Positions 79 through 15,361 of a stretch of DNA of 35,591 nt are shown in pieces. Each line of letters opens with the position of its first letter. Position 1 is the first letter of the stretch. The translations under genes were made by a program, and so were the position numbers. The stretch lies in the NCBI GenBank assembly GCA_903859415.1, contig CAIOMN010000112.1:1-35591 (forward strand), read 5' to 3'. Below the pieces are notes generated by a model, which searched no databases, had not been told where the DNA came from, and worked only from the letters and a program-made list of their open reading frames with translations. Source of the stretch: an uncultured Methylococcaceae bacterium. Its GTDB lineage: Bacteria > Pseudomonadota > Gammaproteobacteria > Methylococcales > Methylomonadaceae.

Positions 79-933
79 ATGCGCAAGTTACTGATTCATT
101 GTTGTTTTGGGTTTTATCTGGTTTTAAGTCTGCTTATATTTGGGCTAGTCACAACTGCACCTGCTGTCGCTCAGACGTATAGCGTTTCTGTCGTGCCACA
201 GCTTACTCCGGTCGCTATTCATAAGGATTGGGCTCCGATTCTGGAAAAGTTGGGTGCTGAGACAGGTTTAACATTTGAACTCGTTGTAGAGCCTAGCATT
301 CCAGCTTTTGAGGAGACTTTATTAGAAGGAACCCCTGATTTTGCTTTTATGAATCCTTACCACTGCATTATTGCTAAACGACATAAAGGTTATATTCCTC
401 TGCTTAGGGACTCGGCAAACATGCTTGAAGGCATACTTGTAGTTCGTAAGGACAGCGCTATTAATTCTTTAGGAGAACTTAACGAGCAAAGCGTCGCTTT
501 TCCAGCGCCTAATGCCTTCGCGGCTTCGCTCCTCATTAGGGCGCAGTTGGCTAAGAATCATGTCAATATTATTCCGAATTATGTTAAAACCCATAGTAAT
601 GTTTATCGTAGCGTGCTGATTGGTGATGCAATGGCAGGTGGGGGCGTCAACAATACCTTTGAAAGAGAGCCTGCGGATGTGCGTGATCAGTTACGAATTT
701 TATATGTTACGCCGCAGTCCGCACCTCATGCGCTGGAAGCGAATCCACGCATTCCTAAAGCGGTCCGTAATAAAGTAATTGCTAGCTTTATAAAGTTGTC
801 GAAAGACCCCGCTAATGCTGCGTTTTTTGATGGTATTCAAATTCCTAAGCCGGTACCAGCGGATTATTCCCGAGACTACAAGCCACTAGAGGTTCTTGGT
901 CTCGATAAATTCGCTGTGATTGGTAGTCAGTGA
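79..933 (+). CDS. PhnD-type phosphate/phosphonate-family periplasmic binding protein
   Basis: A 284-residue protein of the PhnD/SsuA/transferrin-like substrate-binding fold (Phosphonate-bd family). An N-terminal signal peptide covers about residues 1-31, with a hydrophobic core and an Ala-Val-Ala cleavage site before QTYSVSV. Family-like segments are FAFMNPYHC near residue 90 and the later AMAGGGVNNTFERE block, the usual hinge and lobe-2 signature. An AGG lies 9 bases before the ATG. The stop overlaps the GTG start of a hybrid histidine kinase, and no ABC permease or ATPase lies beside it. I therefore infer a sensory rather than transport role: it would bind a small anion or other ligand in the periplasm and report it to the kinase. 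The ligand cannot be read from the sequence. Family assignment is firm; the sensory role is inferred. Confidence 0.85.
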   Translation: MRKLLIHCCFGFYLVLSLLIFGLVTTAPAVAQTYSVSVVPQLTPVAIHKDWAPILEKLGAETGLTFELVVEPSIPAFEETLLEGTPDFAFMNPYHCIIAKRHKGYIPLLRDSANMLEGILVVRKDSAINSLGELNEQSVAFPAPNAFAASLLIRAQLAKNHVNIIPNYVKTHSNVYRSVLIGDAMAGGGVNNTFEREPADVRDQLRILYVTPQSAPHALEANPRIPKAVRNKVIASFIKLSKDPANAAFFDGIQIPKPVPADYSRDYKPLEVLGLDKFAVIGSQ

Positions 934-3290
934 GTCTTCAGTCAAAAAGCCTGTTTTTCCGGTTGGCGCTTGTAGGCGCGTTGGGTTCACTATTGTCAGT
1001 ATTTGCCCTGGGGACCTATGTTGCCTATAAGCAAGGCAAGGTGGCAACCCAATCGGCATACAACGAATCCTACTTGATAACTAGCGGTCTAGCGACAGCG
1101 GTAGCTTCGGATCTGATTGTTAAAAATTACGGAGACATTGACCAAACGGTTGCTCAAGTGACGAATTTTTCCAATCTTGACCACCTTAATGTCATTAACA
1201 AGCGAGGTAACATTGTCGTTGAGGCCAAACGAGATCAGCAAAAAGGAACATGGGGACTCTTTCATGGCGGAGTAGTGAAATTGCCGAGTGACGATCAACC
1301 ACTTTCTACTATAGTGGATAATCATATCGTGACCTGGATGCCTATTAATGCAGGTAGTTTGGTTGGTTGGGTGCGTTCTGATATGCCTCTGAGTCAGATC
1401 ATAGCGAGTCAGTATCTGATATTTAGAGATACATTCCTGGTTGCATTGCTTTCAGTAGTGTTATCCATAGGGGTGGTTATCATTGCCTTACGTCGCCCGA
1501 TAAAACAGATCAGGATCGCAGCTAATTTTGCTGATGAGTTACCTAAAATACACGGGCAGTTCTTAAGCTTGACATCTTCGACGTCTGAGTTACAGGATCT
1601 TGTTTCGGCGTTAAATCGGGCATCTAAAAAGTTGCATAATCAAGATCAGGAACTAAGAGAATCAAGAGACCTGGCTCATGAAGTTGCCAAGTCAAAGAGT
1701 GAGTTTTTGGCCAATATGAGTCACGAGATACGGACTCCGATGAACGGAATTATCGGACTGACGCAATTGGCGCTTAACTTGCCAACTGATCCTGTGGTTA
1801 AAGACTATCTAAGCAAGGTTTTTAGCTCATCACAAAGTCTGCTCGGAATCCTTAATGATATTCTTGATATCTCAAAGCTTGAAGCGTCTCGTATCAATAT
1901 TGAGACTAGAGCTTTTAATTTGGATCACCTCTTAAGCAACTTGCGCAATATGTTTGAAGAAAGCGCTACGTCTAAAAATATCGAGTTCATTATCGAAGTA
2001 GAGGCGAGTGTGCCACGTCATTTATTAGGGGATGCTATGCGTATTCAGCAGATCATTTCCAATCTGCTTGGCAATGCCATTAAATTCACTGGACAGGGCT
2101 CTGTTGCTGTCAAGGTGTTCCTCCAAAAGCTTGAAAAATCAAAGGCTCAGCTTACTTTCTCCATTGAGGATACAGGCATAGGCATTGCTCAGGAAAACTT
2201 CGATAAACTGTTTCAGCCCTTTAGCCAGGTTGATGGCTCTATTACTCGAAAATTTGGTGGCACCGGATTGGGATTGGTGATCAGCCAGAGTTTGTTAAAA
2301 CTCATGGGTGGAGAATTCGATGTTCACAGTCAACCCGGCCAAGGCACTGCTTTCAGATTTAGCCTTCAGCTCGGCGTTGCTGCCCAAGGCGCAATACAAA
2401 AAAACCGGTCAGGTAGCAAAGTCGGCAATCTCGAACGTAACCTTAAAGAGATTGGCCATAATTTGCAGGGTACAAAAGTTCTGGTTGCTGAGGATCAGCA
2501 CATTAACCAGAAAGTTATCAGCGAATTCCTTCGCCTTGCCGGTATAGCCGCAGTAATTTCCAACAACGGTCAAGAAGCACTGGATCTTCTTGAACAGGAA
2601 GATTTCGATGCTGTCCTGATGGATGTGCATATGCCGGTAATGGATGGGATGGAAGCCACTCGCAACATTCGCAGCCATCTGAAATATGCTCGACTTCCTA
2701 TCATTGCCGTAACGGCTGCGGTTACGCAAGAAGAGCAAGAAAGTTACTTGGCTTGTGGCATGAATGCCGTTTTGGCCAAGCCGGTAAATCCAGGGGGCTT
2801 AATTAAGTTGCTGAGTCAATGGATAGTTAGACAGAGCGGGGATTCTGCCAAGGCAATGCAGTTACCTGTAGAGCAACCGATTTTACAAGAGCATAATCAG
2901 GCCAAGGCGCTTAGCTGGGCAGATCTTTCCCGGGTACTTACGGAGTTCGATCTGGAAAATATCAAGTCTATACCGAAAGACAAGCCTGAATTTCTATTGC
3001 GGATGTTGCAGAAGTTTTTTGATGGTTTCAACGACAAGGCTAAAATCATTACTGATCATATAAACAATGGCGAATTGGATGCGGCAAAAACCATAATACA
3101 TACCATTAAGGGTGTCGCAGGCAATCTGGGCGCTATGAACTTGCACCAAGCTTGTGTCGTGATTGAAAGCCAGCTCAAACAGGGTGAGTTTGATGCGAAA
3201 GAATTCCAGGCATGGCTTAAATCGTTTGACGACACTTTGCTGAATATTGCGGACTTGCTGCATATTCAATTAAGTTGTCCCGAAAAATAA
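930..3290 (+). CDS. BarA-like hybrid sensor histidine kinase/response regulator with Hpt domain
   Basis: A 786-residue tripartite inner-membrane kinase. Order: TM1 about 8-32, a periplasmic segment of about 130 residues, TM2 about 165-187, a short HAMP-like linker, HisKA with the phospho-accepting His265 in SHEIRTPMNG, an HATPase with N box (QQIISNLLGNAIKF) and DTGIGI and GGTGLGL boxes, a receiver domain with Asp565 in LMDVHMPVMDG and Lys in AKPV, and an Hpt domain with His724 in IIHTIKG. All phosphorelay residues are present. It starts with GTG inside the TGA stop of the binding-protein gene (GTGA overlap), so the two are translationally coupled. No DNA-binding response regulator is adjacent, so the Hpt domain must pass phosphate to a partner encoded elsewhere. 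The pair resembles binding-protein/kinase sensors such as TorT-TorS in layout. Confidence 0.93.
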   Translation: MSLQSKSLFFRLALVGALGSLLSVFALGTYVAYKQGKVATQSAYNESYLITSGLATAVASDLIVKNYGDIDQTVAQVTNFSNLDHLNVINKRGNIVVEAKRDQQKGTWGLFHGGVVKLPSDDQPLSTIVDNHIVTWMPINAGSLVGWVRSDMPLSQIIASQYLIFRDTFLVALLSVVLSIGVVIIALRRPIKQIRIAANFADELPKIHGQFLSLTSSTSELQDLVSALNRASKKLHNQDQELRESRDLAHEVAKSKSEFLANMSHEIRTPMNGIIGLTQLALNLPTDPVVKDYLSKVFSSSQSLLGILNDILDISKLEASRINIETRAFNLDHLLSNLRNMFEESATSKNIEFIIEVEASVPRHLLGDAMRIQQIISNLLGNAIKFTGQGSVAVKVFLQKLEKSKAQLTFSIEDTGIGIAQENFDKLFQPFSQVDGSITRKFGGTGLGLVISQSLLKLMGGEFDVHSQPGQGTAFRFSLQLGVAAQGAIQKNRSGSKVGNLERNLKEIGHNLQGTKVLVAEDQHINQKVISEFLRLAGIAAVISNNGQEALDLLEQEDFDAVLMDVHMPVMDGMEATRNIRSHLKYARLPIIAVTAAVTQEEQESYLACGMNAVLAKPVNPGGLIKLLSQWIVRQSGDSAKAMQLPVEQPILQEHNQAKALSWADLSRVLTEFDLENIKSIPKDKPEFLLRMLQKFFDGFNDKAKIITDHINNGELDAAKTIIHTIKGVAGNLGAMNLHQACVVIESQLKQGEFDAKEFQAWLKSFDDTLLNIADLLHIQLSCPEK

Positions 3291-3505
3291 TTCGAGATCA
3301 CTAGCTACCATTTACCTTTACAGTATTGGTAACATTCTTTACACCTATCCAAACTATATTGTATTTTTCTTTTTAACATAAGGCAAAAAACGTGGGTATT
3401 GTAAGACCTGCAAAACCTTCCTGTATCGACTTTGATTGGTGATCTATAAATGGCTCATTTGCAGTTGAGTCACATCGATGATTAATATTGCTAATATGAT
3501 GTGTA

Positions 3506-3544
3506 GGCGTTAATATTTCCCGAAAGGGGAGAAATTAATAAGCC
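3506..3544 (+). promoter_or_regulatory. Hairpin with GNRA tetraloop over the higB-remnant ribosome binding site
   Basis: Positions 3516-3521 (TTTCCC) pair with 3526-3531 (GGGGAG, two G-U pairs) across a GAAA tetraloop. An outer TTAAT/ATTAA stem (3510-3514 with 3534-3538) and a GGC/GCC clamp (3506-3508 with 3542-3544) extend it to the base just before the ATG at 3545. The purine run GGGGAGA, which would be the Shine-Dalgarno sequence of the old higB gene, lies inside the helix. Whether it still controls anything is unknown. Confidence 0.35.
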
Positions 3545-3691
3545 ATGCGGATTATAGTTAAAAGCACTTTAAAAAAGTTTTGGGAGCAGCCCCAATATAG
3601 TGATTCTAAGGCGCAATATAGAAATGCGAGTATTTGCACTAATAACAGAGTTGCTTTTAATATCGGCGGCAATACGAAAGCTTATTGTCTA
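3545..3691 (+). pseudogene. Remnant of a HigB-type mRNA interferase toxin gene
   Basis: The reading frame from 3545 begins MRIIVKSTLKKFWEQPQ and continues KAQYRNASICTNNRVAFNI, which I recognise as the N-terminal start and the central core of HigB/RelE-fold mRNA interferases (normally about 95-105 residues). The roughly 22-28 residues that usually lie between these blocks (the AWY...DWKTP region) are missing without loss of frame, and the C-terminal strand region carrying FIGTH is absent. No higA antitoxin follows. The frame instead runs on into batD. It keeps a good purine-rich ribosome binding site. I read it as a decayed toxin-antitoxin insertion, not a working toxin. The right edge is approximate. 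Confidence 0.8.
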
Positions 3692-3742
3692 ATGCGTAAT
3701 TTTTTAGCTCTTAATTCGCATTTAATATTAATGATTAAAACT

Positions 3743-5476
3743 ATGATATTTACAAAAGAACTATTTAAATCTGGAATTAGCTTTAGGTTATTACCCGCTT
3801 TAGTTTTTTCTCTATTAATAATGGGGTGGTCTCAAAATACAGCAGCAGCTGATATTCAGGCTTCTGTTGACCGGAATCCAGTCAGTTTTGATGAATCATT
3901 CCAGATCATCTTTACCGCCACCGAGTCGCCTGATGATGATCCGAACTTTAGTCCTTTAGAACAAAACTTCACCATACTCAGTCAAAACAATAGTACGAGT
4001 TCCTCATGGATTAATGGAAAATCAACTAAGACGATTCAATGGATAGTGAATGTGATGGCCAAAGAAACGGGCAGTATAGTTATTCCGGCAGTGAGATTTG
4101 GTAAAGATACCAGCCAGGCATTAACTATCTTGGTTACTGATAATGCGGCAAAAAAACAGGTCAATACTGACGAAGAATTATATATTGATGTTGAAGCGAC
4201 ACAGCAAAGCCCTTTTATTCAATCACAGGTTTTTTACACCTTACGTCTGTTTACGCGAGTCGATATTTCTCAAGCCAGACTGAATGAGCCTGAGTTGCCT
4301 GATGCGGTTATTGAACGTTTAGGAGAGGACAATAATTATACGACTCAAGTCAAAGGCGTTAGTTATACTGTCACAGAGCGTAAGTATGCCATTTTTCCTC
4401 AAAAAAGCGGTAAGTTAACTATTAAACCACTGGTATTAACGGCTGAAGTACTGGTTAATAATCCTGGGAGAATCAATCCCTTCTTTAACTCCCAAATGAG
4501 TAAAACAAAACGGGTTGAGTCCAAAGCAGTAACACTGGATGTGAAGCCTGTACCCGCCGCCTTTACAGGAAAACACTGGTTATCTGCTGAACAATTAGTC
4601 ATAAAGGAATCGTGGTCAGGAGACGCTCAGCAAATGAAAGTGGGAGAACCGTTGACCAGAACCCTAACGCTATTGGCAAAAGGAGCAACAGTAGGGCAAC
4701 TTCCTGAATTGAATACAAACCAGACCAGTGAACAGTTAAAAATCTACCCTGATCAACCGGTATTGCAAGAACAGAAAAAACCCGATGGGCTGCTTTCAGT
4801 CAGAGAAGAGAAAACAGCAATCATTCCTTCTAAAGCCGGCAATTACACATTACCCGCCATTGAAATACCCTGGTTCAACACCCAAACCCAAAAGATGGAA
4901 ATTGCCCGGATTTCAGCAACTAAAATCTCTGCAACGGCTGTCGCTGGACAAACAGAGCCAGCCGCTATAACGCCATCAACAATACCCGCTCCCCAGCAAA
5001 TTAATAGTGTAACTGCTGTACAGCAAAGCCCCCAACCAACCAGCCAGGAAACCAGTGTCTGGCAATGGATTTCAGTGTTTTTAGGACTTGGGTGGTTAAC
5101 AACCCTGATTATTTTGTTCCGCAAACGTGCGCCTAAAAAACAGGTCATTGAAGAAGATCCTACTGAAGTCAGCTTAAAGGAAGCTATTAAGCATTTAAAA
5201 GTGGCCTGCAAGCAAAATGACCCACTGGCGGCTAAGAATGCCTTACTGATCTGGGGTAAGCTAAAGTTTAATAGTCATACCTTAGGCTCACTTGCAGAGT
5301 TTTGTGATGCCCGTTTAAGAGATGAAATACTACATCTAAATCAAACACTGTATGGCAAAGCCGTCGGTCAATGGCAGGGTAAAAAACTATTCCAAACCTT
5401 TACTGAATATAAAGCCCTGAAGAAAATTACCTCTCCTACTGAAGATAAAAGCCTGGAACCGCTTTATCGCCTGTAA
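3743..5476 (+). CDS. batD: BatD family protein (aerotolerance-type)
   Basis: A 577-residue exported membrane protein of the BatD family. From the ATG at 3743 the product has a signal peptide (MIFTKELFK, then a hydrophobic stretch, cleavage near NTAAA/DIQ), an extracytoplasmic region opening with the family-typical IQASVDRNPVSFDESFQ, beta-rich repeats, a single TM helix at about residues 438-461 and a basic cytoplasmic tail. BatD proteins usually act with BatA/BatB von Willebrand-A proteins and a MoxR ATPase; none of these is in the window. The open frame extends upstream to 3545, but that 66-residue extension is a higB relic that would bury the signal peptide, so I chose 3743 although no clear ribosome binding site precedes it (3692 and 3731 are alternatives). 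trmN6 starts one base after its stop. Confidence 0.85.
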   Translation: MIFTKELFKSGISFRLLPALVFSLLIMGWSQNTAAADIQASVDRNPVSFDESFQIIFTATESPDDDPNFSPLEQNFTILSQNNSTSSSWINGKSTKTIQWIVNVMAKETGSIVIPAVRFGKDTSQALTILVTDNAAKKQVNTDEELYIDVEATQQSPFIQSQVFYTLRLFTRVDISQARLNEPELPDAVIERLGEDNNYTTQVKGVSYTVTERKYAIFPQKSGKLTIKPLVLTAEVLVNNPGRINPFFNSQMSKTKRVESKAVTLDVKPVPAAFTGKHWLSAEQLVIKESWSGDAQQMKVGEPLTRTLTLLAKGATVGQLPELNTNQTSEQLKIYPDQPVLQEQKKPDGLLSVREEKTAIIPSKAGNYTLPAIEIPWFNTQTQKMEIARISATKISATAVAGQTEPAAITPSTIPAPQQINSVTAVQQSPQPTSQETSVWQWISVFLGLGWLTTLIILFRKRAPKKQVIEEDPTEVSLKEAIKHLKVACKQNDPLAAKNALLIWGKLKFNSHTLGSLAEFCDARLRDEILHLNQTLYGKAVGQWQGKKLFQTFTEYKALKKITSPTEDKSLEPLYRL

Positions 5477-9228: not shown

Positions 9229-9914
9229 ACGATGCGCCCTGCTTCAATTCTAATGGTACGCTGACAATGTGCGGCTAGAATGGGGTCATGCGTTACTAGA
9301 ATCAATGTGGTCTGGTTTTCGCGGTTCAACTCAAACAGTAAATTAATAATGGTCTCCCCCGTTTTACTGTCTAAATTCCCGGTTGGTTCATCGGCAAATA
9401 AAATAGCAGGCTTAGTGGCAAAAGCTCTCGCTAAAGCAACCCGCTGCTGCTCACCACCCGACAGTTGTTTGGGCGTATGAGACAACCGCTGTCCTAAACC
9501 AACCCGATTTAATAACGCCGTAGCCACTGCCTTTGCATTTTTATCACCTCTTAATTCTAAAGGTAACATGACATTTTCCAGTGCTGTCAGCCCTTGCAAT
9601 AATTGGAAGGACTGAAACACAAAGCCAATCAACTCATTACGTAAGGTCGCCCGTCCGTCTTCATTCATTTCAGTCAAGGATTTGCCCTTAAGTTTAATCG
9701 TTCCACTACTCGGCGTGTCTAACCCTGCCAACAGACTAATGAGGGTTGATTTCCCTGAACCTGACTCGCCAATAATGGCAATACTCTCACCCGAGTTGAT
9801 TATCAAATCTATCGATGACAAGATATGCAGGGTTCCTTCGGAAGTTACCACGGCTTTACCTAAATCTTCTGTTAATATAATAGAGTTTAAGGTCTGTTTA
9901 ATTTGAGTTTGCAT
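9225..9914 (-). CDS. ybbA: ABC transporter ATP-binding protein (YbbA-like)
   Basis: The cytoplasmic ATPase partner of the following permease, of the LolD/MacB/YbbA group. Visible motifs are Walker A GESGSGKST, Q-loop FVFQSFQLL, signature LSGGEQQR, Walker B ILFADEPTGNLD and the H-loop THD. The frame is open to an ATG at 9953 inside tesA, but the ATG at 9914 gives 229 residues, close to E. coli YbbA (228), and leaves one base between the two divergent start codons (tesA ATG at 9916). None of the candidate starts has a clear Shine-Dalgarno sequence. Because tesA and ybbA start back to back, each promoter must lie inside the other gene or overlap its start. Confidence 0.92.
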   Translation of the reverse strand: MQTQIKQTLNSIILTEDLGKAVVTSEGTLHILSSIDLIINSGESIAIIGESGSGKSTLISLLAGLDTPSSGTIKLKGKSLTEMNEDGRATLRNELIGFVFQSFQLLQGLTALENVMLPLELRGDKNAKAVATALLNRVGLGQRLSHTPKQLSGGEQQRVALARAFATKPAILFADEPTGNLDSKTGETIINLLFELNRENQTTLILVTHDPILAAHCQRTIRIEAGRIV

Positions 9915-13949: not shown

Positions 13950-14686
13950 GAGTTGTTATACGATTCAGCAAGTTTTTCTGCTTCGGCAAAATCTAATGTA
14001 CCTTCATAAATAGCACGTCCTGTAATTGCGCCCATAATACCTTCAAAAGCTACGGCACCTAGGGATTTTATATCATCTATATTCGTAATCCCACCAGAAG
14101 CAATAACAGGGATTTTAATAGCCCTGGCGAGACGGGCAGTGGCTTCAATATTAACGCCTTGCATCATACCGTCTCTGGAAATATCCGTATAAATAATGGC
14201 TTCTACACCATCCGCTTCAAAGTGCTGAGCCAAATCAATGACATCATGTTTAGACAGTTTTGACCAGCCATCAATAGCCACTTTACCGTCTTTAGCATCT
14301 AGGCCAACGATAATTCGTCTTGGATATTCTTGAGCCATATCTCTAACAAAGTGCGGCTCATTAACTGCTTTAGTACCGATAATGACATATTCTACGCCAG
14401 CATCCAGATACGCCTGAATTGTGTCTTCATCACGAATTCCACCGCCAATTTGCACGGGAATATCAGGATAGGCCGCAACGATGGCATGAATAACTTCAGC
14501 ATTAATTGGTTTGCCAGCAAAAGCGCCATCTAAATCAACGAGATGAATTCTTTTAGCACCGGCCGCAACCCAGCGCCCAGCAACAGCCACAGGATCATCA
14601 GAAAAAATCGTGTTATCGTCCATTCGACCTTGACGTAAACGCACACATTTTCCTTCTTTCAAATCGATAGCGGGTATTAACAACAT
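13946..14686 (-). CDS. hisA: ProFAR isomerase (phosphoribosylformimino-AICAR-P isomerase)
   Basis: A 246-residue (beta-alpha)8 barrel for the Amadori isomerisation of ProFAR to PRFAR (fourth step). Catalytic Asp8 lies in [18 protein letters not shown] and the second acid Asp130 in [20 protein letters not shown] is the usual HisA loop and ASGGI the phosphate site. It follows hisH by 33 bases and overlaps hisF by 4. The C-terminal FAEAEKLA region is ordinary for the family. PriA-type dual activity is not expected outside actinobacteria. Confidence 0.97.
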
Positions 14687-14719
14687 AGAAATTGAATCCT
14701 TTACAACAAATAGGGTGGG

Positions 14720-15361
14720 TTAAACTTGACCATCCCAGTGCAAAAAGTTATTCAGCAATTGTAAACCAACCGCTTGACTTTTTTCTGGGTGAAATTGTAC
14801 TGCAAATACATTCTCTCTAGCCAAAGCGCAAGCAAATGCAGTGGGATACTCTGTAGTGGCACTGATTAAAGTCGTATCATTAGGTACTGCATAGTAGCTA
14901 TGCACAAAATAAAACCGACTATTTTGTTGAATTTTATCCCATAGCGGATGCGAGGAAAAATGAACTTGATTCCAACCCATGTGCGGGATTTTTAAATTAT
15001 TTCCTTGAGCATCATGCAACGACTGGGAGAAATGAACAACATGACCAGGAAGAATATCCAAGCCTTGTGTGCTACCATTTTCCTCGCTATCTGTTAATAG
15101 AGCCTGCATACCCAAACAAATACCTAATAAAGGTTTACTTTTGGCAACTTCTTTAATTACATTGGCTAAATTAGAATCGTTAAGAGCTTGCATACAGTCT
15201 CGCATCGCTCCAACGCCTGGAAAAACGACTCGATCAGCTTGCAGAATCAGATCGGGATCTGAAACAATTTGTACATCAACATGGGGTGCTGCATACTGCA
15301 ACGCTTTTGCAATTGAATGCAAATTTCCCATTCCATAATCAATAACAGCGACAGAAGACAT
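14720..15361 (-). CDS. hisH: Imidazole glycerol phosphate synthase, glutaminase subunit
   Basis: A 213-residue class I glutamine amidotransferase that supplies ammonia to HisF. The nucleophile is Cys82 in LLGICLGMQ; the His and Glu of the triad are His191 and Glu193 in VQFHPEKSQ. The N-terminal VIDYGMGNLHS and FPGVGAMRDCM motifs are characteristic of HisH. It lies between hisB (27 bases upstream) and hisA in the operon order common to gammaproteobacteria. Confidence 0.97.
   Translation of the reverse strand: MSSVAVIDYGMGNLHSIAKALQYAAPHVDVQIVSDPDLILQADRVVFPGVGAMRDCMQALNDSNLANVIKEVAKSKPLLGICLGMQALLTDSEENGSTQGLDILPGHVVHFSQSLHDAQGNNLKIPHMGWNQVHFSSHPLWDKIQQNSRFYFVHSYYAVPNDTTLISATTEYPTAFACALARENVFAVQFHPEKSQAVGLQLLNNFLHWDGQV

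Follow-up and report, generated by a model that had tools for sequence, protein, structure and literature searches.

The gene batD in the window, by which we mean the whole analysed stretch of 35,591 nucleotides from a methanotrophic bacterium, is preceded by the remains of a higBA toxin-antitoxin operon. As the original prediction had stated, the broken toxin gene reads without a stop into batD. The frame at 3545-5476 on the plus strand is open over 643 amino acids, beginning with MRIIVKSTLKKFWEQPQ, and the observation of a higB relic running into batD is confirmed as real. The locus is probably best explained by the collapse of a higBA operon ahead of batD via two deletions, the remnant of which most likely now acts only as the 5′ leader of batD. 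The features on which this account is built are the following.

930-3290, plus strand: gene that we take to encode a sensor histidine kinase; its DNA homology to the relative G017 stops at 3268.
3269-3485, plus strand: junction sequence from the kinase gene to the higB leader, whose origin was searched for in 101 genomes.
3486-3544, plus strand: non-coding higB leader, which shares 47 of its 59 bases with that of the intact higB at locus L147.
3545-3674, plus strand: 5′ relic of higB, recognised by the Pfam profile PF09907, by tblastn to intact copies (L043, L045, L046, L048, L044, and L042), and by DNA alignment.
3608-3614, plus strand: AAGGCGC, the scar of a 66-bp deletion, from DNA alignment to the intact copy L045.
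3673-3699, plus strand: 3′ end of higA (YESLLSNA-stop), from BLAST to the higA end of L147; 25 of 30 bases.
3700-3730, plus strand: spacer before the native batD start, from comparison with G017.
3731-5476, plus strand: batD proper, with the Pfam domains BatD and DUF7939 and a native start at either ATG 3731 or ATG 3743.

The first 66 residues of the open frame match the Pfam HigB_toxin profile (PF09907) with an E-value of 1.6e-5 and 25.5 bits, compared to a curated cut-off of 27, and cover profile positions 10-46 of 74, the match being neither above the cut-off nor a complete domain; the NCBIfam profiles gave no HigB match. A chance resemblance to HigB was rejected on the basis of this Pfam E-value and of a DNA match to L147 with an E-value of 1e-38. 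In a PF09907 search of 101 genomes at an E threshold of 0.001, a match was obtained in 28, and the relic is the sole match in the window's own genome (G000), whereas none was found at this threshold in G017, the BatD of which is 94% identical to that of the window. At E-values up to 10, three further, weaker places appeared in the window's genome. The same genome holds, at C20:3242-3803, a pair consisting of a distant higB-like sequence (12.9 bits, E 0.43) and a higA-like one (48% identical, within a 411-residue frame).

When the first 66 residues of the relic were compared by tblastn with 29 loci from the PF09907 search, the six intact copies named above were recovered as close relatives. Alignment of the kept parts with these copies and with L147 shows a single gap of 22 residues (66 bp), located directly behind QYSDS or at most two residues further on, such that higB codons 1-21 are fused to codons 44-65 of the intact gene; the resulting relic has 43 codons and lacks everything past residue 65 of approximately 102. 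The original prediction had described a HigB start followed by the HigB core, with an in-frame loss of about 22-28 residues and of the C-terminus, and both losses are borne out, the internal one at the lower limit of the stated range; the comparison of 3545-3700 with intact higB genes that it had proposed gave significant matches by Pfam, tblastn, and DNA alignment. With its C-terminal part lost, the toxin is expected to be inactive. At the scar point, the intact L045 carries AAAGCGC and AAGGCGC, and because these near-identical copies sit 66 bp apart here, the loss likely occurred via slippage between AARGCGC copies. The DNA match to higB stops at 3674 in five of the six tblastn loci with a second segment, as it also does in L147; L041 stops earlier. 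Comparison of the relic with L147, L043, and L045 over its 129 kept bases gives 7-8.5 nonsynonymous and 11.5-18 synonymous changes; between the intact copies, the corresponding values are 4-5.5 and 15-19, so that the relic's nonsynonymous excess is slight and too small to separate decay from constraint.

The DNA beyond the relic was also considered as plain batD leader from 3673 onward, which was rejected because a third BLAST segment against L147 aligns window positions 3673-3700 with the end of higA. The HigA of L147 terminates in YESLLSDA, and the window's own frame at 3673-3699 reads YESLLSNA-stop, that is, the last eight codons of higA and its stop, out of frame with the higB relic. The tail scores 25 of 30 bases, and elsewhere in the window no place exceeds 20 on the plus or 19 on the minus strand. 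When the upstream DNA (1 kb at most) of 83 batD entries, among which some contigs occur twice, was scanned, this junction scored 25/30 (three entries) and G017 24/30 (two entries), and the other 78 reached at most 20/30. A tblastn search with the HigA protein did not find the tail in the window, this method being too insensitive for 27 bases that are visible by DNA only. A complete higA-like gene follows higB in the intact loci L043, L045, and L147; directly after the relic, only the last eight codons and the stop are left. The higB and higA remnants meet at a TA common to both (3673-3674), and compared with L147 some 434 bp are missing, from mid-higB to the end of higA. Since the tail belongs to higA, the whole higBA operon has collapsed, by two deletions of about 66 and 434 bp. 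The tail, the second deletion, and the rearranged neighbourhood described below had been missed by the original prediction.

G017, the nearest relative, carries RISYERLLSNA-stop ahead of batD, keeping the higA tail only, and the DNA homology of the batD side to G017 starts at 3673. Because this genome also has the higA tail ahead of batD, higBA was probably located there before the lineages of the window and of G017 split. In G017, the frame of the window is closed by a stop just upstream of batD; the spacer in the window is 2 bp shorter than that of G017, and therefore the frame stays open into batD. Within the spacer, the 28 bases at 3701-3728 match at 93% the end of a gene at G000:C264:3809-3836 on the minus strand, presumably alpha/beta-hydrolase-like, in the same reading frame (NFLALNSH vs DFLVLNSH-stop), by chance or as a copied fragment.

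The start region of the dead toxin gene is well preserved. The closest leader is that of L147, taken as Methylococcaceae bin ZH-Oct18-38, with a DNA match running from 3486 through the start codon. The leader holds the Shine-Dalgarno sequence AAGGGGAGA, with a pairing energy of -8.3, which is the third strongest among the 21 long open frames of the window when for each frame the best-scoring start within the initial 60 codons is mechanically taken. It lies 12 nt from the ATG of the relic, a spacing longer than the usual optimum, and the intact copies look similar. In addition, an inverted repeat, TCCCAnnnTGGGA, is present before higB in six of the seven distinct intact loci listed (L043, L045, L046, L048, L053, and L147), beginning 26-31 bases before the ATG, and L042 carries it with one mismatch. 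The relic leader has a degenerate form, TCCCGAAAGGGGA, in which TCCC and GGGA are kept and the inner pair is broken; this repeat is a putative operator. No sigma-70-like promoter match was found inside the conserved leader, and the three found in 3270-3760 are not above chance, with 2.4 expected.

In Acinetobacter baumannii, HigA is reported to repress its own promoter (PMC5906591). The window's genome retains an intact higA at C117:760-1113, the product of which is 88% identical to the HigA of L043. The surrounding locus (L161, C117:203-1116) shows two small genes before higA, which we take to resemble DUF4160 and DUF2442 members, and no higB was seen upstream within it. It could be speculated, as a quite improbable idea, that this orphan HigA still binds the degenerate operator of the relic and regulates HigB′-BatD, such that batD would have been wired to a toxin-antitoxin regulator after the death of the toxin.

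The gene downstream is an ordinary family member. Using queries begun at 3725, two residues ahead of ATG 3731, the translation of 3725-5473 matches Pfam BatD (PF13584) with 95.5 bits (cut-off 24.1) and DUF7939 with 76 bits, and the N-terminus after the native start is signal-peptide-like as judged by eye. The extension of 66 residues given by the original prediction holds if batD starts at ATG 3743; with ATG 3731, it would be 62 residues. Only the second ATG, equivalent to 3743, is present in L102, L141, and similar loci. Among 92 entries, the HigB match ahead of batD is significant in five, all of this one junction (the window, L007, and three of G012: L008, L070, and L092), and the next-best match has an E-value of 0.45; elsewhere, the frame upstream of batD is either closed or open only over a short, unrelated stretch. 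The notion that the HigB extension is a conserved part of BatD was therefore rejected, and the comparison of batD starts in relatives thus turned out in favour of the original prediction. One internal TAA is found in each of the batD matches of L021 (G013) and G049:C171, reflecting frame damage or assembly error.

The batD starts were also scored for Shine-Dalgarno pairing, using the last five in-frame ATGs per locus before the conserved DRN motif in 41 loci (55 named loci, less 13 without a usable BatD N-terminus and L092, which has the same junction). The native starts in the window score 0, as do those of L093 and L094, the nearest other loci, and 37 of the 41 other loci are without an in-frame ATG at -5 or better, the exceptions being L110, L113, L124, and L127. 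A batD start without a Shine-Dalgarno sequence thus looks ordinary, to which the relic adds a strong site. The original prediction, supported only in part, had expected automatic annotation to give batD a false N-terminal extension; since the higB start has a strong site, which the batD starts of the nearest relatives lack, a real fusion should not be dismissed as an annotation artefact. It is plausible that a HigB′-BatD fusion protein is made or that the higB leader is used. As to the function of the downstream gene, Leptospira biflexa from which every bat gene had been deleted is reported to show no growth, morphology, or oxidative-stress phenotype (PMC3557215).

The relic stands in a rearranged neighbourhood. 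In G017, a glycosyltransferase gene and the histidine kinase gene lie on C159, and a sugar kinase gene and batD on C267; the names of the two exchanged neighbours, glycosyltransferase and sugar kinase, are our assumptions from sequence features. In the window's genome, the glycosyltransferase and sugar kinase genes lie together on C221 and the histidine kinase gene and batD in the window, and the DNA matches switch accordingly. The reciprocal junction is seen at L160 (G000:C221) 9596-9690, where the glycosyltransferase gene is located ~94 bp from the sugar kinase gene. The exchange upstream of the relic was thus reciprocal, an inversion being the probable form. The sugar kinase gene is found within 3 kb of batD on the same contig in nine genomes (G017, G023, G015, G010, G004, G001, G011, G006, and G022), because of which the order histidine kinase-batD is most likely derived. 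It is not near batD in five congeners (on other contigs in G012, G008, G013, and G003; far away and as a short match in G019), nor in two genomes of other genera (G038 and G045).

At the kinase side of the junction, the C-terminus HIQLSCPEK (3268-3290) is absent in the copies of G017 and G012, where homology ends at 3268 and 3263, respectively, and the rearrangement may have changed the last kinase codons. For the sequence at 3269-3485, besides the same junction in G012, only two short weak matches were found in the 101 genomes, with up to seven candidates examined in each. In L068 (G017:C267), part of the sugar kinase-batD spacer, at ~14620-15206, has matches of 69-73% at C154, C107, C187, and C58 of the window's genome, and these four matches give it the look of a repeat element.

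It is very improbable that the relic is debris of a higB gene cut by the rearrangement breakpoint itself. The relic does sit between the histidine kinase gene and batD, and the partner junction exists in C221, but what follows the higB break is the higA tail, which is also present before batD in G017 with its sugar kinase-batD order. The break in higB is therefore a deletion within the operon, and the breakpoint lies upstream, in 3268-3486; a relic at an inversion breakpoint was rejected for this reason. An assembly chimera is less credible still, to the point of being nearly negligible. The genome is a draft of 280 contigs, which would allow for one, but the same junction occurs in a second bin, G012, on C10 (taken as CAIMEB010000010, VK_bin-0278), with 99.88% identity over 7,475 bp, and the reciprocal junction in C221 exists as well. 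The G012 junction speaks against a chimera, though it is not an independent species, and the two bins may share source samples. In G012, both batD and the histidine kinase gene also occur in a further copy (76% and 88% identical, respectively), and this bin may therefore mix strains.

The two other readings concern what the leader does now. It is quite possible, even if we do not favour it, that the relic is an inert scar, in which case batD would keep its own promoter and start in ~3700-3743 and the open frame would be a coincidence of three length changes. This would be consistent with the other batD loci, which have no higB leader, with the lack of a promoter-like match in that leader, and with the slightly higher nonsynonymous differences of the relic than those among intact copies. 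The good preservation of the leader and its Shine-Dalgarno sequence argues against it, as does a rough estimate, from two frame choices with a one-in-three chance each and 19 out-of-frame codons lacking a stop, that the frame would stay open by chance in only a few per cent of cases. Rather unlikely is a functional fusion, in which ribosomes would load at the higB site and make a 643-residue HigB′-BatD with its signal peptide 62-66 residues in, an internal signal that would export or anchor BatD. The continuous frame, the strong Shine-Dalgarno sequence at the higB start only, and the zero scores of the native starts here and in L093 and L094 point towards it, but batD starts of this kind look normal in most other usable loci, and the fusion would need an internal signal peptide, which is unusual.

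Under the favoured explanation, a collapsed operon that left a leader, a higBA operon would have been located directly upstream of batD and in its orientation, and it was probably present there by the time of the common ancestor with G017. Two deletions, one of 66 bp within higB, probably across near-identical copies of AARGCGC, and one of ~434 bp, from mid-higB to the last higA codons through the shared TA, would then have left the higB leader with its ribosome-binding site, the 43-codon broken higB, and the last eight higA codons with their stop out of frame. The remnant would serve as the batD leader by supplying transcription or ribosome loading, and translation of BatD could begin at its own start, at the fused one, or at both. 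The order of these events and any expression from the leader are what we infer from the comparisons.

Toxin-antitoxin pairs come and go, and in our judgement it is rare for intermediates of their loss to be resolved at the level of single bases. Here, the sequence shows both deletions with the short repeats that probably flanked them, the remaining end of the antitoxin gene, and how the region looks in a near relative. The locus also illustrates concretely how automatic gene calling may pick a questionable start for a conserved gene, and it is a test case for whether a dead toxin operon can bequeath its leader to a neighbouring gene.

A search of the open-access literature by title found no paper on this locus. 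The relic shares with HigB of PF09907 (PDB 5ifg, 5ycl, and 6kml) the N-terminal part and the NNRVxFNIGGN core, and its intact relative L043 matches these structures with E-values of 2-3e-5; unlike them, the relic is without 22 internal residues and the C-terminal part after residue 65. The window's batD resembles BatD of PF13584 in having both Pfam domains and differs in the HigB-derived frame ahead of it, which is confined to this junction. Degraded type II toxin-antitoxin loci and orphan antitoxins (PMC7354431) are similar in that a broken toxin gene is found here and a toxin-less intact higA elsewhere, whereas the accessible portion of that source describes no relic in frame into a neighbouring gene. 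The nearest precedent found is higBA-higX of Caulobacter crescentus: in a few strains, a probably foreign higBA with a LexA site precedes an ancestral gene for a transcription factor, and its LexA-regulated promoter region is inferred to have altered control of that gene (PMC13384398). In that system higBA is intact and unfused to higX, whereas here it has collapsed and reads in frame into batD. Compared to these systems, the locus is a well-resolved intermediate of higBA decay, open in frame into batD, which poses a testable regulatory question rather than representing a new kind of system.
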